Positions 19,704 through 26,761 of a stretch of 64,000 nt of DNA are shown here, one piece after another. The number at the start of each line of letters is the position of its first letter. The stretch's first letter is position 1. The notes under the pieces were generated by a model. That model was not told where the DNA came from. It was given only the letters and a program-made list of their open reading frames with translations, and searched no databases. Location of the stretch: contig NZ_LMHT01000034.1 of the NCBI RefSeq assembly GCF_001429025.1, positions 84,953-148,952 of the forward strand, read 5' to 3'. The position numbers and the translations under genes are program-made. Source of the stretch: Phenylobacterium sp. Root700. Its GTDB lineage: Bacteria; Pseudomonadota; Alphaproteobacteria; Caulobacterales; Caulobacteraceae.

Positions 19704-20339
19704 CTAGTCCGGCCAGAGTTCCTGGACGTCGCCCTTGCGGTTCAACACCCGGACGGCGCGCTTGACCACGGTCAGCAGACGCTCCTTGCGGGCCTGCTCC
19801 TCGAAGGTCATGGCGCCGCGCGCCAGCCCCTCAAGCAGGAAACGGCCGAGATCGCGGCTGGTCTGGAAGCGGGGGTCCTCGCCGGCCTGGGCGAGCGCTA
19901 GGAAGCGGTCGCCAACCTGATTGCGGTCAAAGGCGCTCTGGGCGTTGGCCAGCCGGTTGCGCAGCATGGCGTCGGTGCGGGCGGCGGCCTCCAGCTCGGC
20001 GAAGGCGATGAACGGGATTTCGTGCAGCAGAGCCCAATAGGCGTCGATCGCCTGCTCGGACGCGTCGACGCCAGGCGCCACCGGACCGGAGGCGGCCTGC
20101 TCGAACAGGCGTGCGCGCTCGACCTCGATATGGGTCACGGCGGCCTCAACCAACTCCTCGCGGCTGGAGAAGTGATAGAGCATGGCGCCGCGCGTCAGGT
20201 TCGCGGCGTCCGCGATCATGGCGTTGGTGGCGGCGTGATAGCCGACCTCGGCGAACAGCCGCATGGCGGCGTCGAGAATTCGCGCACGGGTGCGCCGAGA
20301 CTTCGGCGTCTCCTTGGCGGGATAGGTTCGGGCGTCCAT
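19704..20339 (-). CDS. TetR/AcrR family transcriptional regulator
   Basis: The 211-residue protein has the N-terminal helix-turn-helix of TetR regulators at about residues 18-64 (RARILDAAMRLFAEVGYHAAT, then IADAANLTRGAMLYHFSSREELVEAA). The C-terminal ligand domain shows nothing specific. It diverges from the plcP-like gene, so it might control that unit or itself; no clear palindrome distinct from the Pho-box candidate is visible between them. Confidence 0.9.
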   Translation of the reverse strand: MDARTYPAKETPKSRRTRARILDAAMRLFAEVGYHAATNAMIADAANLTRGAMLYHFSSREELVEAAVTHIEVERARLFEQAASGPVAPGVDASEQAIDAYWALLHEIPFIAFAELEAAARTDAMLRNRLANAQSAFDRNQVGDRFLALAQAGEDPRFQTSRDLGRFLLEGLARGAMTFEEQARKERLLTVVKRAVRVLNRKGDVQELWPD

Positions 20340-20443: not shown

Positions 20444-20492
20444 GCAAACAGCCTAACCGATGAGCAGTTCTCCGCAGCCGAGGGGGCACGGA

Positions 20493-21332
20493 ATGACTGA
20501 TCTGAACGTTCGCAAGTACCGGACGGTGTTCATCTCCGACGTGCATCTGGGCACGAAGGGATGTCAGGCGGAGCTGCTGCTGGATTTCATCCGGCATATT
20601 GAGTGCGATACGCTGTATTTGGTCGGCGACATCGTCGACGGGTGGAAGCTGCGCTCGGGCTGGCATTGGCCTCAGGCCCACAACGACGTGGTGCAGAAGA
20701 TCCTGCGCATGGCCCGCAAGGGCGTGCGGGTCGTCTATGTGCCCGGCAATCACGACGACCGGATCCGCGACTTCATCGGCGTCCACTTCGGCGGCGTGGT
20801 GGTGGCGCGCGACGCCATCCACGAGACCGCCGACGGCCGCCGCTTCCTGGTCCTGCACGGCGACGAGTTCGACGGGGTGGTGCAGCACGCCAAGTGGCTG
20901 GCCTTCGTCGGCGACTACGCCTACCGGGCGCTGATCGCCGCCAACACCTTGTTCAATCGCGTTCGCCGGCGGATGGGCTTCGGCTACTGGAGCCTCTCGG
21001 CCTTCATGAAGACCCGGGTGAAGAACGCCCTGCAGTTCGTCGAGAACTTCGAGGCCGCGGTCGCCGACGAGGCCCGCCGGCGCGGCGTGGACGGGGTGAT
21101 CTGCGGACATATCCACAAGGCTGAGATGCGCGACATCGACGGCATCGCCTATATCAACGATGGTGACTGGGTGGAGAGCTGCTCGGCCCTGGTCGAGCAC
21201 GACGACGGCCGGCTGGAGATCCTGGAGTGGGCCAAGCTGCGGTCCTGGTCGGCCATCGACCGGACGATCGGCGCGCCCGAACCGCTGCTGGAGCTGCCGA
21301 TCGACGTGGTGGCCCGGCCGGTCGCGGCCTGA
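20493..21332 (+). CDS. Metallophosphoesterase, PlcP-like phospholipase C (COG2908, LpxH-like)
   Basis: The 279-residue protein has calcineurin-like phosphoesterase motifs: FISDVHLGTK (DxH), LVGDIVDGW (GDxxD), VPGNHDD (GNHD), VLHGDEFD and ICGHIHKAEMR (GHxH). This family is often named UDP-2,3-diacylglucosamine hydrolase, but the alphaproteobacterial members next to a GT4 glycosyltransferase act as PlcP, which removes the phospho-headgroup of phospholipids when phosphate is scarce. An earlier ATG at 20460 is possible, but GGGGG before 20493 and the Pho-box position favour the later one. Distinguishing LpxH from PlcP rests on context. Confidence 0.85.
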   Translation: MTDLNVRKYRTVFISDVHLGTKGCQAELLLDFIRHIECDTLYLVGDIVDGWKLRSGWHWPQAHNDVVQKILRMARKGVRVVYVPGNHDDRIRDFIGVHFGGVVVARDAIHETADGRRFLVLHGDEFDGVVQHAKWLAFVGDYAYRALIAANTLFNRVRRRMGFGYWSLSAFMKTRVKNALQFVENFEAAVADEARRRGVDGVICGHIHKAEMRDIDGIAYINDGDWVESCSALVEHDDGRLEILEWAKLRSWSAIDRTIGAPEPLLELPIDVVARPVAA

Positions 21333-21353
21333 GCGCCTCCGGATCGATCTCAT

Positions 21354-21390
21354 TGACAGTCGAACTGATTTGCTGACAGCTCCACTGTCA
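21354..21390 (+). promoter_or_regulatory. Palindromic operator candidate at the start of the TetR-glycosyltransferase gene
   Basis: TGACAG (21374-21379) and CTGTCA (21385-21390) form a perfect inverted repeat with a five-base spacer that touches the start codon. A further TGACAG at 21354-21359 forms part of TTGACA, a good -35 hexamer. A 17-bp palindrome over the promoter or start is typical for autoregulated TetR genes. The CTGTCA core is also the Pho-box core, but the spacing between copies does not fit the 11-bp PhoB repeat. Confidence 0.6.
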
Positions 21391-22790
21391 TGATCCCACC
21401 GACACGCTACACCTCGAGCCTGCGGGACCGCCAGAAGCAGGCGACCCAGGACCAGATCATGCATGCGGTGGCCCGCAAGCTGGAATCCGGACCGCTGGAG
21501 GATCTCAGCTTCGCCGAGATCGCCGCCGAGGCCGAGGTCGGCGAGCGCACCGTCTATCGCCACTTCCCAACCAAGGAAGCCTTGCTGGGCGCCTTCTGGG
21601 CCTGGCTGCAGGCCCAGGCCCTCAGCCCCGCCCGCCCGGCCAGCCGCATCCGCGACGCCATCACCGCCCCGCGCGAGAACGGCCATCGGCCGATGCGCAT
21701 CCTGCTGGTCACCGACGCCTGGGAGCCGCAGGTCAACGGCGTGGTCCGCACCCTGACCCGCGTGGTCGCCGAGCTGCGGGAACTGGGTCATTCGGTCGAG
21801 GTGATCAGCCCCGATCAGTTCAAGACCTTCCCCCTACCGACATACCCGGAAATCAAAGTGGCGCTCGCCGCCCACGAACCGGTGCAGGAACGCTTCAAGG
21901 CCTTCGAGCCCGAAGCCATCCACATCGCCACCGAGGGACCGCTGGGTCTGGCGGCCCGGCGCATCTGCGTGGAGTGGAAGCTGCCCTTCACCACCAGCTA
22001 TCACACGCGCTTCCCGGAATACGTCTCGGCCCGACTGCCTTTGCCGCTAGCCGCCGGCTACGCCTACATGAAGTGGTTCCACAAGCCGTCGGGCCGAATG
22101 ATGGTCACCACGCCGACCATGCGCACCGAGCTGGAACACCACGGCTTTGGCAACATCTCGGTCTGGTCGCGCGGCGTCGACACCGTGATGTTCCACCCCA
22201 AGCGCGACGACGAACCGGACATCTTCGAGGGCCTGGCCCGGCCGATCTTCCTGTCGGTCGGCCGGGTGGCGGTGGAGAAGAACATCGAGGCGTTCCTGGG
22301 CCTCGACCTGCCCGGCACCAAGGTCGTGGTCGGGGACGGTCCGCAGCGAGACGAGCTGAAGGAGCGCTATCCGAATGTGGTCTTCACCGGCGCTAAGTTC
22401 GGCGACGACCTGGCCGCGCACTTCTCCTGCGCCGACGTCTTCGTCTTCCCCTCGCTCACCGACACCTTCGGCCTGGTGATCCTGGAGGCTATGGCCGCGG
22501 GGATCCCGGTGGCCGCCTATCCCGCCCCCGGCCCTATCGACATCCTGCCGGGCTCCGGCGCCGGGGTCCTGGCCCACAGCGCCACCGAGGGCCTGCGCGA
22601 GGCCTGCCTGGAGTGCCTGAAGCTGGACCGCAAGGTCGTGCGCGCCTTCGCCGAGGGTTTCTCCTGGCGCGCCTGCGCCGAGGACTTCGTGAAAAACCTC
22701 CAGCCCTATCCGGAGCCGGAGAAGACCCGCTTCTGGCGTAAGCTGCGCCGGCTGGCCCGGGTGCGGCGACGCAGGCCGGAGGCGGCCTGA
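21390..22790 (+). CDS. GT4 lipid glycosyltransferase with an N-terminal TetR-type DNA-binding segment
   Basis: The 466-residue frame has two unlike parts. Residues about 14-75 are a TetR helix-turn-helix (DLSFAEIAAEAEVGERTVYRHFPTKEALLGAFW spans its core), without the usual ligand domain. From residue 102 it is a complete GT4 glycosyltransferase: MRILLVTDAWEPQVNGVVRT, TSYHTRFPEYVSARL, RGVDTVMFHP, SVGRVAVEKNIEAFL and the nucleotide-sugar motif FPSLTDTFGLVILEAMAAG. GT4 genes beside plcP (Agt type) make phosphorus-free glycolipids from diacylglycerol. The enzyme alone could start at 21693 (ATG), where no clear ribosome site is seen. I infer a fusion or an in-frame regulator remnant. Confidence 0.85.
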   Translation: MIPPTRYTSSLRDRQKQATQDQIMHAVARKLESGPLEDLSFAEIAAEAEVGERTVYRHFPTKEALLGAFWAWLQAQALSPARPASRIRDAITAPRENGHRPMRILLVTDAWEPQVNGVVRTLTRVVAELRELGHSVEVISPDQFKTFPLPTYPEIKVALAAHEPVQERFKAFEPEAIHIATEGPLGLAARRICVEWKLPFTTSYHTRFPEYVSARLPLPLAAGYAYMKWFHKPSGRMMVTTPTMRTELEHHGFGNISVWSRGVDTVMFHPKRDDEPDIFEGLARPIFLSVGRVAVEKNIEAFLGLDLPGTKVVVGDGPQRDELKERYPNVVFTGAKFGDDLAAHFSCADVFVFPSLTDTFGLVILEAMAAGIPVAAYPAPGPIDILPGSGAGVLAHSATEGLREACLECLKLDRKVVRAFAEGFSWRACAEDFVKNLQPYPEPEKTRFWRKLRRLARVRRRRPEAA

Positions 22791-22830
22791 CCAACGGCGC
22801 TTCGGCGCCTGGACACGGCGGAGGACGATG

Positions 22831-24057
22831 ATGTCCGCAGGCGCTCTACGCGTTGAATTTCCCGGCCACTCCGGCGCGACCCTGGCCGCGCGGCTAGATC
22901 TGCCAAACGGGCCGGTGCGGGCCTTCGCCCTGTTCGCCCACTGTTTCACCTGTTCCAAGGACCTGATGGCGGCGCGGCGCATCGCCGCCGACCTGGCGCG
23001 CGAGGGGGTCGCCGTCCTGCGCTTCGACTTCACCGGCCTGGGATCGAGCGAGGGGGAGTTCGCCTCGACGAACTTCACCTCCAATGTCGCCGACCTGATC
23101 GCCGCCGCCGACTATCTGCGGGGCCACTATCAGGCGCCCAGCGTGCTGATCGGCCATTCGCTGGGCGGCGCGGCGGTGCTGGCCGTCGCCAAGGACATCG
23201 CCGAGGTCCGCGCGGTGGTGACCATCGGCGCGCCGTTCGACCCCAGCCACGTCCTGCACAACCTCGGCTCCAGCCTGCAGGAGATCGAGGAGAAGGGACA
23301 GGCCCAGGTCGTGCTCGGGCTCAAGACCTTCACGATCCGGCGCCAGTTCGTCGAGGATGTCCGCCGCCGTTCGCTGCGCGAGGCGGTGGCGAGCATGAAG
23401 AAGCCGCTGCTGATCCTGCATTCGCCGCTCGACCAGCTAGTGGGCGTCGACAACGCCACCCGGATCTTCCTGGCCGCCAAGCATCCGAAGAGCTTCGTCT
23501 CGCTCGACCACGCCGACCACTTCCTGAGCGATCCCAAGGATGCCGCCTTCGCCGCCCAGGTCATCGCCGGATGGCTGCCGCGCTACCTGACGGCCGACGC
23601 GCCGCAGGGCGAAGAGCCGGTCGAGCATGTGCGGGTGATGGAGACCGGGGTCGGCCGGTTCCAGAACATGGTCCAGGCCGGCCGCCACCGGCTGTTCGCC
23701 GACGAACCCGAAAGCGTCGGCGGCTCGGACACCGGCCCCTCGCCCTACGACTTCCTGTCGATCGCGCTGGGGGCCTGCACCTCGATGACCCTGCGGCTCT
23801 ACGCCGAGCGCAAGCAGCTGGACCTGGGCCGCATCCAGGTCGAGGTCTCGCACAAGAAGCTGCACGTGCAGGACGGCGCCGCGGGCGGCGAGGACGGCAA
23901 AATCGACTGCTTCAACCGGGTGATCTCGGTGGACGCGGACATGCCGCAGGAGATGCGCGCCAAGCTTGTCGAGATCGCCGGCAAGTGCCCGGTGCACCGC
24001 ACGCTGGAAGCCCGCTCAAAGGTCGAGACGCAGGTCCGGTCGTTCGACCCGGCCTAG
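22831..24057 (+). CDS. Bifunctional alpha/beta hydrolase - OsmC family protein
   Basis: The 408-residue protein joins an N-terminal alpha/beta hydrolase (about residues 1-250) to a C-terminal OsmC domain (about 265-408). The hydrolase part shows HCFTCSKD, RFDFTGLGSSEG and the nucleophile elbow GHSLGG, with LDHADHFL supplying the histidine. The OsmC part keeps both redox cysteines (LGACTSMTLRLYAERK and AGKCPVHRTLE) of peroxide-reducing OsmC/Ohr proteins. Two ATGs stand together; the second is better spaced from GGAGG. Its stop overlaps the stop of the opposing acr3 gene. Confidence 0.92.
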   Translation: MSAGALRVEFPGHSGATLAARLDLPNGPVRAFALFAHCFTCSKDLMAARRIAADLAREGVAVLRFDFTGLGSSEGEFASTNFTSNVADLIAAADYLRGHYQAPSVLIGHSLGGAAVLAVAKDIAEVRAVVTIGAPFDPSHVLHNLGSSLQEIEEKGQAQVVLGLKTFTIRRQFVEDVRRRSLREAVASMKKPLLILHSPLDQLVGVDNATRIFLAAKHPKSFVSLDHADHFLSDPKDAAFAAQVIAGWLPRYLTADAPQGEEPVEHVRVMETGVGRFQNMVQAGRHRLFADEPESVGGSDTGPSPYDFLSIALGACTSMTLRLYAERKQLDLGRIQVEVSHKKLHVQDGAAGGEDGKIDCFNRVISVDADMPQEMRAKLVEIAGKCPVHRTLEARSKVETQVRSFDPA

Positions 24058-25130
24058 CCGCGCGCCCTTCGCACCGCCGGACCTTGCTCGTACCAGGCCT
24101 TGCTGCGGTTCACGATCGCCACCACCGACAGCATCACCGGCACCTCGATCAGCACCCCGACCACGGTGGCCAGGGCCGCGCCGGACTTGAGGCCGAACAG
24201 GCTGATGGCGGCGGCCACGGCCAGCTCGAAGAAATTGCTGGCCCCGATCAGCGCCGAGGGTCCGGCCACACAGTGGGCTTCGCCGGTCATGCGGTTCAAC
24301 AGATAGGCCAGGCCCGAGTTGAAATAGACCTGGATCAGGATCGGGACCGCCAGCATGGCGATGATCGCCGGCTGGCCGACGATCTGCTCGCCCTGGAAAC
24401 CGAACAGCAAGACCAGGGTGGCCAGCAGCGCCGCCAGGGCCAGCGGCGAGACCGCGTCCAGCACCCGCTGCAACCCCGCCTCGCCGCCGCGCCGGATGAT
24501 CAGGGCGCGCAAGCCCTGGGCCACGATCACAGGGACCAGGATGTAGAGCCCAACCGAGAGCAGCAGCGTCTCCCAGGGCACGGTGATCGCCGAGAGCCCC
24601 AGCAGCAGGCCGACGATCGGGGCGAAGGCCACCACCATGATCGCGTCGTTGAGCGCCACCTGGCTGAGGGTGAAGTTCGGCTCGCCGCGCGTCAGGTTGC
24701 TCCAGACGAAGACCATGGCCGTGCAGGGCGCGGCGGCCAGGATGATCAAGCCGGCGATGTAGCCGTCGATCTCGCCGGCCGGCAGGTAGGGCCGGAACAG
24801 ATAGCCGATGAAGACCGCGCCCAGCGCGGCCATCGAGAACGGCTTCACCGCCCAGTTGATGAACAGGGTGACGCCGATGCCGCGCCAGTGACGGCCGACC
24901 GCGCGCAGGGCGCTGAAGTCAACCTTGAGCAGCATGGGGATGATCATCAGCCAGATCAGCACCGCCATCGGCAGGTTGACCTGGGCGACCTCCGCCGCCC
25001 CGATGACCTGGAAGGCGGCGGGAAACAGCTGACCAAGGCCGACCCCGACCACGATGCAGAGCGCCACCCAGAGCGTCAGGTAGCGCTCGAACCGCGACAT
25101 GGGCGGCGGCTCGTGGGCGGCGTCGCTCAC
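24054..25130 (-). CDS. acr3: Arsenite efflux permease Acr3
   Basis: The 358-residue protein exports arsenite across the inner membrane. It has ten hydrophobic helices and the Acr3 signatures LPMAVLIWLMIIPMLLKVDF near residue 55, the essential cysteine in LAAAPCTAMVFVWSNLTRG, and ALNDAIMV. I choose the GTG at 25130 because it overlaps the arsC stop by four bases (GTGA); an ATG at 25100 in the same frame would remove ten residues. A longer open frame upstream only repeats arsC DNA in another phase. It is the last gene of arsR-arsC-acr3. Confidence 0.94.
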   Translation of the reverse strand: MSDAAHEPPPMSRFERYLTLWVALCIVVGVGLGQLFPAAFQVIGAAEVAQVNLPMAVLIWLMIIPMLLKVDFSALRAVGRHWRGIGVTLFINWAVKPFSMAALGAVFIGYLFRPYLPAGEIDGYIAGLIILAAAPCTAMVFVWSNLTRGEPNFTLSQVALNDAIMVVAFAPIVGLLLGLSAITVPWETLLLSVGLYILVPVIVAQGLRALIIRRGGEAGLQRVLDAVSPLALAALLATLVLLFGFQGEQIVGQPAIIAMLAVPILIQVYFNSGLAYLLNRMTGEAHCVAGPSALIGASNFFELAVAAAISLFGLKSGAALATVVGVLIEVPVMLSVVAIVNRSKAWYEQGPAVRRARG

Positions 25131-25642
25131 GAGGCGCGTTCCGGCGCGTCGGCCGTCTCGTGGATTTCCCGCAGCCGGGTCTGCAGCGACAGTTGGTCGA
25201 TGGTCGCCAGCGGCAGGCTCAGGAACAGGCGGATGCGGGTTCCCAGCTGTCGGGCGGCTTCGGCGAAGGCCGCGGCGATCTCCGCCTCCGAGCCTTCGGC
25301 GGCGGCCGGATCGGGGATTCCCCAGTGCGCGCTCATTGGCTGGCCGGGCCAGATCGGGCAGACCTCGCCGGCGGCGTTGTCGCAGACGGTGATCACGAAA
25401 TCCAAGGGCGGCGCGCCGGGGCGGGCGAACTCGTCCCACGACTTGGAGCGAAAATCGGCGGCGCTGAAGCCGAGCGCCTCGACCAGCGAGAGCGCGTGCG
25501 GATTAACCTGGCCCTTGGGCATGGAGCCTGCGGAATAGGCCCTGAACCGGCCGCCGCCCTCCTTGTTCAGCACGGCTTCGGCGATGATCGAGCGGGCGGA
25601 ATTGCCGGTGCAGAGAAACAGCAGGTTGTAGGTCTTGGGCAC
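25127..25642 (-). CDS. arsC: Arsenate reductase, low-molecular-weight phosphatase family
   Basis: The 171-residue enzyme reduces arsenate to arsenite. The P-loop CTGNSARS at residues 11-18 is the C-x5-R catalytic site, and FVITVCDNAAGEVCPIWPG near residue 80 carries the cysteines that form the thioredoxin-type relay. The start is a GTG preceded by AGGGAG, which itself overlaps the arsR stop; no ATG in this frame fits. The C-terminal 35 residues (after RIRLFLSLPL) extend beyond the core and fit the longer alphaproteobacterial ArsC proteins. Confidence 0.93.
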   Translation of the reverse strand: MPKTYNLLFLCTGNSARSIIAEAVLNKEGGGRFRAYSAGSMPKGQVNPHALSLVEALGFSAADFRSKSWDEFARPGAPPLDFVITVCDNAAGEVCPIWPGQPMSAHWGIPDPAAAEGSEAEIAAAFAEAARQLGTRIRLFLSLPLATIDQLSLQTRLREIHETADAPERAS

Positions 25643-25653
25643 GAAGGCGCTCC

Positions 25654-25986
25654 CTAGCAGCAGTCGTTGACGGTCTTGAAAAGCGGCGCGCAGATCTCCG
25701 GGGAGCCGCCGCAGCAGTCCTCGACCAGGAAGCCCAGCAGATCGCGCATGGCGTCGTATTGGGCGCGGTAGACGATGGAGCGGCCGTCGCGCTGCGAGAC
25801 CACCAGCCCGGCGTTGGCCAGGATGTTCAGGTTCGCCGACAGCGTATTGGGCAGCATCTCCAGCCGACGGGCGAGTTCGCCGGCGGCCAATCCCTCGCCG
25901 CCGGCCTGGACCAGCAACCGGAACGCGGCCAGGCGGCCTTCGTGAGCCAGGGCGGCGAGACTTGTGACGGCGGATTTTACTTCCAT
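25654..25986 (-). CDS. arsR: ArsR family arsenic-responsive repressor
   Basis: The 110-residue winged-helix protein begins [25 protein letters not shown] and contains [32 protein letters not shown] in two blocks (recognition helix and wing). The C-terminus is unusually cysteine-rich, with C91, C92, C99, C109 and C110; such C-terminal cysteine sets bind As(III) in other ArsR subtypes. The ATG at 25986 lies inside its own presumed operator. It leads the arsR-arsC-acr3 unit and diverges from arsH. Confidence 0.93.
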
Positions 25987-26009
25987 ATTTCCAGTATATT
26001 CGAAATATG
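25984..26009. promoter_or_regulatory. ArsR operator candidate between arsR and arsH
   Basis: CATATTTC (25984-25991) and GAAATATG (26002-26009) form a perfect eight-base inverted repeat around a ten-base AT-rich spacer. The left arm contains the arsR start codon, so bound repressor would block the arsR promoter or leader, and it lies 35 bases before the arsH start. One site could serve both directions. Confidence 0.75.
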
Positions 26010-26044
26010 AGACGTTTGAAAGACACCCATCCCGTGAGAACGCC

Positions 26045-26761
26045 GTGACCGACCTGCCCGCCCTACAGCCCCAGTTCCTTCGACAGCCCGCGCCCGGAAG
26101 CCTGGAGCCAGGCGAGCGCGCCGCCCATCCGCCGCGCATCCTGCTGCTCTACGGCTCGCTGCGGGAACGCTCGTTCTCGCGCCTGCTGACCGAGGAGGCC
26201 GCGCGCATCCTGCGTGAGCTGGGCGCCGAGACCCGCATCTTCGATCCGCGCGACCTGCCCCTGCCCGACAGCGCGAGCGCGGACCATCCGAAGGTCCAGG
26301 AACTGCGCGAGCTGTCGCTGTGGTCGGAGGGCCAGGTCTGGTGCAGCCCCGAACGGCACGGGGCGATCACCGGCGTCATGAAGAGCCAGATCGACTGGAT
26401 CCCTCTGGAGATCGGCAGCGTGCGGCCGACCCAGGGCCGGACCCTGGCGGTGATGCAGGTGAGCGGCGGATCGCAGTCGTTCAACGCGGTGAACACGCTG
26501 CGCCTGCTGGGCCGCTGGATGCGGATGATCACCATCCCCAACCAGTCGTCGGTGGCCATGGCCTGGAAGGAGTTCGGCGAAGACGACCGGATGAAGCCCT
26601 CGGCCTATTACGACCGCGTGGTCGATGTGATGGAGGAACTGGTGAAGTTCACCCTGCTGACCCGCGACCGGGCCGACTACCTGGTCGACCGCTACAGCGA
26701 GCGAAAGGCCCAGGGGCGGGCCAATCCGATGGAGGCCCTGCGCGCCAACGCGGTGAGCTGA
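26045..26761 (+). CDS. arsH: ArsH, NADPH-dependent FMN-binding organoarsenical reductase/oxidase
   Basis: The 238-residue flavoprotein starts at a GTG ([12 protein letters not shown]). It shows [24 protein letters not shown] (FMN phosphate loop), [10 protein letters not shown], and the ArsH signature [29 protein letters not shown] in consecutive segments near residue 100. ArsH oxidises trivalent organoarsenicals or acts as a quinone reductase. It faces away from arsR-arsC-acr3 and shares their operator. A 27-codon in-frame extension upstream would run through that operator, so the GTG start is preferred. Confidence 0.93.

Follow-up and report, generated by a model that had tools for sequence, protein, structure and literature searches.

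An old TetR-glycosyltransferase fusion in Phenylobacterium carries a putative operator on its own start codon

In Phenylobacterium sp. Root700, a single gene joins a TetR-type helix-turn-helix (HTH) to a GT4 glycosyltransferase, which raises the question of whether a lipid enzyme could bind DNA and control its own expression. We examined this locus in a window of 64,000 nucleotides (the whole stretch of contig NZ_LMHT01000034.1 that was analysed), in which the following features were located.

20460-21332, + strand: plcP-like metallophosphoesterase upstream of the fusion (PF00149)
21353-21358, + strand: −35-like TTGACA, 37 nt upstream of the ATG; TTGAC kept in 67/72 fused loci
21374-21390, no strand assigned: putative operator TGACAG-CTCCA-CTGTCA, 17 bp; dyad at the start in 72/72 fused loci
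21390-22790, + strand: TetR-GT4 fusion gene, 466 amino acids; open frame, kept fused through the genus
21423-21617, + strand: TetR DNA-binding domain, residues 12-76 (PF00440; dN/dS 0.28; N-terminal model)
21543-21563, + strand: recognition helix, residues 52-58, GERTVYRH region; a helix in the model, GERTVYR nearly invariant among fused proteins
21618-21692, + strand: linker, residues 77-101; dN/dS 0.62, length variable and always in frame
21693-22787, + strand: complete GT4 (Agt-like) glycosyltransferase, residues 102-466 (PF13439, PF13692)

The frame at 21390-22790 on the + strand is continuous from its ATG and encodes 466 amino acids. In Pfam, TetR_N (PF00440) matched residues 28-68 with 38.4 bits (E = 1.1e-9; curated cut-off 24), and the GT4 domains PF13439 and PF13692 matched residues 115-265 and 311-410. 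The first-pass annotation had described one uninterrupted TetR-GT4 frame with a linker of about 25 residues, no TetR ligand domain and an internal ATG at 21693; all of this was borne out, the linker spanning residues 77-101 and the internal ATG encoding residue 102. From residue 77 onward the protein consists of linker and GT4 sequence. The TetR_N HTH (PF00440 above cut-off, with the predicted fold) and a palindromic operator-like site in its own promoter (the putative dyad, 72/72 loci) are both present, and the C-terminal ligand-binding and dimerisation domain of the family is missing; the fusion is therefore not a canonical TetR regulator, though it may function like one. NCBIfam matches were all below cut-off, to SlmA and AcrR at the N-terminus and to lipid and other GT4 enzymes in the glycosyltransferase (GT) part, where no equivalog cut-off was reached. 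The GT part contains GT-B GT4 domains whose donor-site residues G291-R292, K297-N298, D358-T-F-G and E366 are invariant in the alignment, and plcP ends 57 bp upstream of the fusion. It is predicted to be a membrane-lipid glycosyltransferase of the Agt-type GT4 group, with a putative glycosyl-diacylglycerol as product.

We used AlphaFold to model residues 1-101. The model (mean pLDDT 76, core blocks mostly 80-92) contained four TetR helices at residues 10-33, 41-48, 52-58 and 62-78, and its best 50 Foldseek matches in the PDB were TetR-family regulators, including the DNA complexes 4jl3 and 4gct; the E-values were weak (best 0.011) because the TetR head is small. The full-length model had a mean pLDDT of 50, too poor for domain contacts or dimers.

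We then followed the fusion through relatives, as the first-pass annotation had suggested, and found proteins with the same two parts in Phenylobacterium and one related genus. The complete fused frame was present in 90 of 101 Phenylobacterium genomes, in 82 as one alignment piece and in 8 with a linker insertion that left the frame open. In six others the gene was cut at contig ends, as judged from split or edge positions, and five, several of them incomplete or fragmented assemblies, had no full-length match; an unfused full-length copy occurred in 0 of the 101. This genus-wide presence, which includes single-contig genomes, rules out an isolated case or an assembly artefact. Among 322 genomes of the family Caulobacteraceae, the fusion was found in all three genomes of the related genus g21 and in none of the other genera searched. 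The match started near residue 98 in the Caulobacter genomes listed and in most other genera, and a few family matches reached back to about residue 64 without the TetR part; the GT part of the fusion begins at the same point as the unfused Caulobacteraceae homologues. Among 298 genomes of the order, whose matches did not include g21, no fusion was found elsewhere, and relatives of the N-terminus outside Phenylobacterium were stand-alone proteins of 200-267 amino acids. No description of a TetR-glycosyltransferase fusion was found in the open-access literature.

The fusion is thus old and present throughout the genus. In the GT tree g1 and g21 formed supported groups, and in the TetR-domain tree, built on few columns, all fused sequences lay on one side of a branch with 92% SH-aLRT support; both trees are compatible with a single origin. 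An earlier proposal that a deletion joined a regulator to the enzyme holds as to the joining, but a deletion as an isolated event does not fit a fusion that is old and genus-wide. Either the loss of a ligand domain by deletion or the entry of a promoter-operator-HTH cassette into the plcP-agt interval could have produced the fusion. Genome G098 carries two copies of the fusion gene, at C131:12261-13649 and C23:6991-8385.

Conservation was also seen just before the reading frame of the fusion. The last base of the dyad TGACAG-N5-CTGTCA is the A of the start codon at 21390, and a dyad abuts the start in 72 of 72 fused loci, following the pattern NG[A/G]CA-N7-TG[T/C/A]C with the start codon as the next three bases. 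Both half-sites have the GRCA/TGYC form in 68 of these loci. Across the 72, half-site positions have an information content of about 1.7 bits each, positions in the centre 0.6 and those farther upstream 0.19. A TTGAC is found 36-38 nt ahead of the ATG in 67 loci. An E. coli-type promoter scan found no site at the fusion promoter, owing to its poor −10; the left half-site of the dyad would contain this weak element (consensus GACAGT). Given the TTGAC-ATG spacing, transcription should begin on the ATG or no more than a few nucleotides from it, which suggests a leaderless fusion mRNA. Leaderless mRNAs are common in Caulobacter (375) and are translated as well as others (PMC4117421). The first-pass annotation had raised the possibility that the enzyme binds DNA at positions 21354-21390 and regulates its own gene, and the conserved dyad on the start codon, together with the conserved TTGAC, argues for it.

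A Pho box reading of CTGTCA was discarded by hand: the spacing is not that of the 11-bp direct repeat, and what lies on the ATG is an inverted repeat. We do not claim that the two half-sites covary strictly, since many loci pair GACA with TGCC. Extra upstream dyad copies or half-sites were seen at L115, L116, L118, L119, L200 and L201.

We next compared the intervals between plcP and agt, another check proposed at first pass. At most fused loci, and at 10 of 10 unfused loci inspected, the gene immediately upstream on the same strand is plcP. In the Caulobacter loci inspected (L121-L126), the agt start overlaps the plcP stop as TGATG, which leaves no space for a regulator between the two genes. 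The dyad was absent at the ten unfused loci inspected; one locus, L128, has a short plcP-agt gap and no dyad. At six fused loci (L050, L051, L053, L054, L056 and L130) plcP was not found in the fetched flank, and the fusion faces a divergent TetR gene, with TTGAC and dyad kept. In this arrangement the intergenic promoter must serve the fusion. By eye, the divergent gene at the first five of these loci resembles the window gene at 19704-20339.

The position of plcP bears on an alternative in which the locus makes two products, the TetR-GT protein, expressed from a leaderless promoter of its own, and a GT-only enzyme that starts at Met102 on plcP-agt readthrough, the long form being mainly regulatory. 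In most genomes plcP is indeed the next gene upstream and on the same strand, and the Met102 ATG is invariant in 54 of 54 fused genes, so that a short GT-only product may also be made. Yet no recognisable Shine-Dalgarno or GGAG-like site precedes Met102, and clades without an adjoining plcP still keep this codon. We consider this arrangement unlikely.

If the long form is made, the next question is whether its own head reads the dyad. The 4.58-Mb genome contains a single copy of the perfect palindrome, at the fusion start codon. Across 55 genomes of the genus we counted 35 perfect dyads, 27 of them at the fusion gene (one being an extra upstream copy), and a reversed control pattern gave 3 matches in the same genomes. 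No other relative of the fused HTH was detected in the window's genome at E ≤ 1e-10; with the dyad unique, no close paralogue remains to read it.

Stand-alone relatives gave a view of the same HTH outside the fusion. TetRs of 207 amino acids from another family of the same order (L213-L219) share with the fusion the HTH subtype and the TTGACA-37-ATG spacing, and carry the module TGACAG-N5-CTGTCATG, with TGACAG-N5-CTGTC (or CTGCC) directly before their own ATG; they differ in having a further C-terminal part and in not being joined to an enzyme. Stand-alone relatives at a greater distance, whose recognition helix has T or Q in place of the G before ERT, show the site TGTCA-N7-TGACATG. The residue before ERT thus tracks the half-site: G accompanies the GACA/TGTC type, and T or Q the TGTCA/TGACA type. 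Stand-alone proteins split 8:0 versus 0:5 (Fisher P = 0.0008, relatedness ignored). In g21, the fused proteins with A before ERT (L131, L132) have a mixed site. The rule is imperfect, since the G-type fused loci L207 and L212 carry one TGACA half-site. The stand-alone TetRs L213-L221, L223, L224 and L058 all appear to carry an operator directly on the start codon, which suggests that leaderless autoregulation is a trait of this subfamily. The fusion, kept through the genus together with its putative operator, suggests that promoter, operator and HTH were captured together, and ancient HTH capture is the best explanation for the TetR head on the lipid glycosyltransferase. Among the stand-alone TetR neighbourhoods inspected, none was a donor locus beside a glycosyltransferase.

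It is very unlikely that the dyad is read in trans by another regulator, with the fused HTH serving DNA anchoring or oligomerisation. The fused HTH does lack a TetR dimer domain, and a stand-alone relative of it is also present in two genomes of the genus (G022, G038). However, the window's genome and most members of the genus searched keep the dyad without any stand-alone relative, and in the stand-alone TetRs this HTH subtype is likewise accompanied by the dyad.

A further copy of the dyad palindrome, GTGACAGT-N3-ACTGTCAC, lies near base 2001 of each of six loci (L172, L174, L175, L176, L177 and L179), between kamA (lysine 2,3-aminomutase)-like and L,D-transpeptidase-like genes named by eye. 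It recurs in one sub-lineage of the genus, has no TTGACA at the usual distance and is missing from some sister genomes. It is possibly a second target, or an unrelated hairpin.

Selection on the TetR part shows whether the head is maintained as protein. In a codon alignment of 54 fused genes, the HTH had a median pairwise dN/dS (Nei-Gojobori) of 0.28, compared with 0.62 in the linker and 0.20 in the GT, so purifying selection acts on the TetR part. The start ATG at 21390 is as invariant as that of Met102. Pro101, just before Met102, is nearly invariant as a residue with a varied codon, which indicates that the junction is translated, and none of the complete copies has lost the open frame, although the linker has indels. 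The least credible reading is thus the one, also offered at first pass, of a working enzyme started at Met102 (21693) behind a TetR part that is a dead remnant or mere leader: Met102 is invariant and unfused homologues begin at its position, but HTH constraint, the signs of translation across Pro101, the lack of a GGAG-like site ahead of Met102, the invariance of upstream ATG and dyad, and a frame kept open through indels all oppose it.

A conserved HTH head with a dyad kept on its own start codon makes it very probable that the enzyme limits its own gene. We accordingly favour, as the probable though far from certain reading, a full-length, autorepressing lipid glycosyltransferase, an enzyme-repressor comparable to PutA and BirA. 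The full-length protein would be made from 21390, where translation is taken to start, and transcription probably begins at or within a few bases of that ATG, giving a leaderless mRNA. With the TetR head joined to the GT, no separate repressor would be needed. The protein would dimerise through or beside its GT part, the dimer would bind TGACAG-N5-CTGTCA, placed after the TTGACA box and before the start codon, and the bound fusion would block RNA polymerase, so that the enzyme limits its own amount. The evidence for a full-length protein that represses its own gene is good, with the missing TetR dimerisation domain and the weak −10 box among the points against it.

What the autorepressing enzyme might sense is a more tentative matter. 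PutA shuttles between DNA and membrane, and by analogy the most likely signal would be the enzyme's own location or load. Enzyme engaged at the inner membrane with diacylglycerol or anionic lipid may stay off the DNA, and surplus enzyme alone may repress, which is the weakest step of the scheme. Glycolipid synthesis could then be self-limiting without a separate sensor; we regard such a signal, membrane engagement or lipid substrate, as conceivable, though doubtful.

Known systems offer partial parallels. As in a trigger enzyme, the fusion is a conserved single chain that combines an enzyme with a DNA-binding domain, and a putative site lies at its own gene. In PutA, a proline dehydrogenase that carries a ribbon-helix-helix at its N-terminus, and in BirA, a biotin ligase with an N-terminal HTH, enzyme and DNA-binding domain likewise share one chain and genes of the own pathway are repressed (PMC6978683), but folds, enzymes and DNA-binding heads differ from a TetR head on a lipid glycosyltransferase, for which switching is conjectural. 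GmaR of Listeria is, like the fusion, a glycosyltransferase that also controls transcription, as an antirepressor (PMC9638930); unlike the fusion, it acts via the repressor MogR, modifies flagellin, and has no TetR head and no known binding to an operator of its own. Agt of the plcP-agt loci of Agrobacterium and Pelagibacter makes MGDG and GADG under phosphate limitation (PMC4796936) and is likewise a GT4 adjoining plcP; no DNA-binding head has been described for it, and its plcP clusters were predicted to contain Pho boxes. Caulobacter crescentus responds to phosphate starvation by inducing glycolipids (PMC6445935). Autorepressing enzymes are few. If the proposed loop is real, TetR-GT fusion and operator would form a simple one-protein feedback on membrane composition, and the protein tests whether a TetR head works without its own dimer and ligand domain.

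The gene next downstream in the window (22828-24057) also encodes a fusion, of an alpha/beta hydrolase with OsmC, a known domain combination. It is followed at 24054-26761 by what appears by eye to be an arsenic-resistance cluster, comprising ArsR, an ArsC-like phosphatase, an Acr3-like transporter and a divergent ArsH-like flavoprotein.
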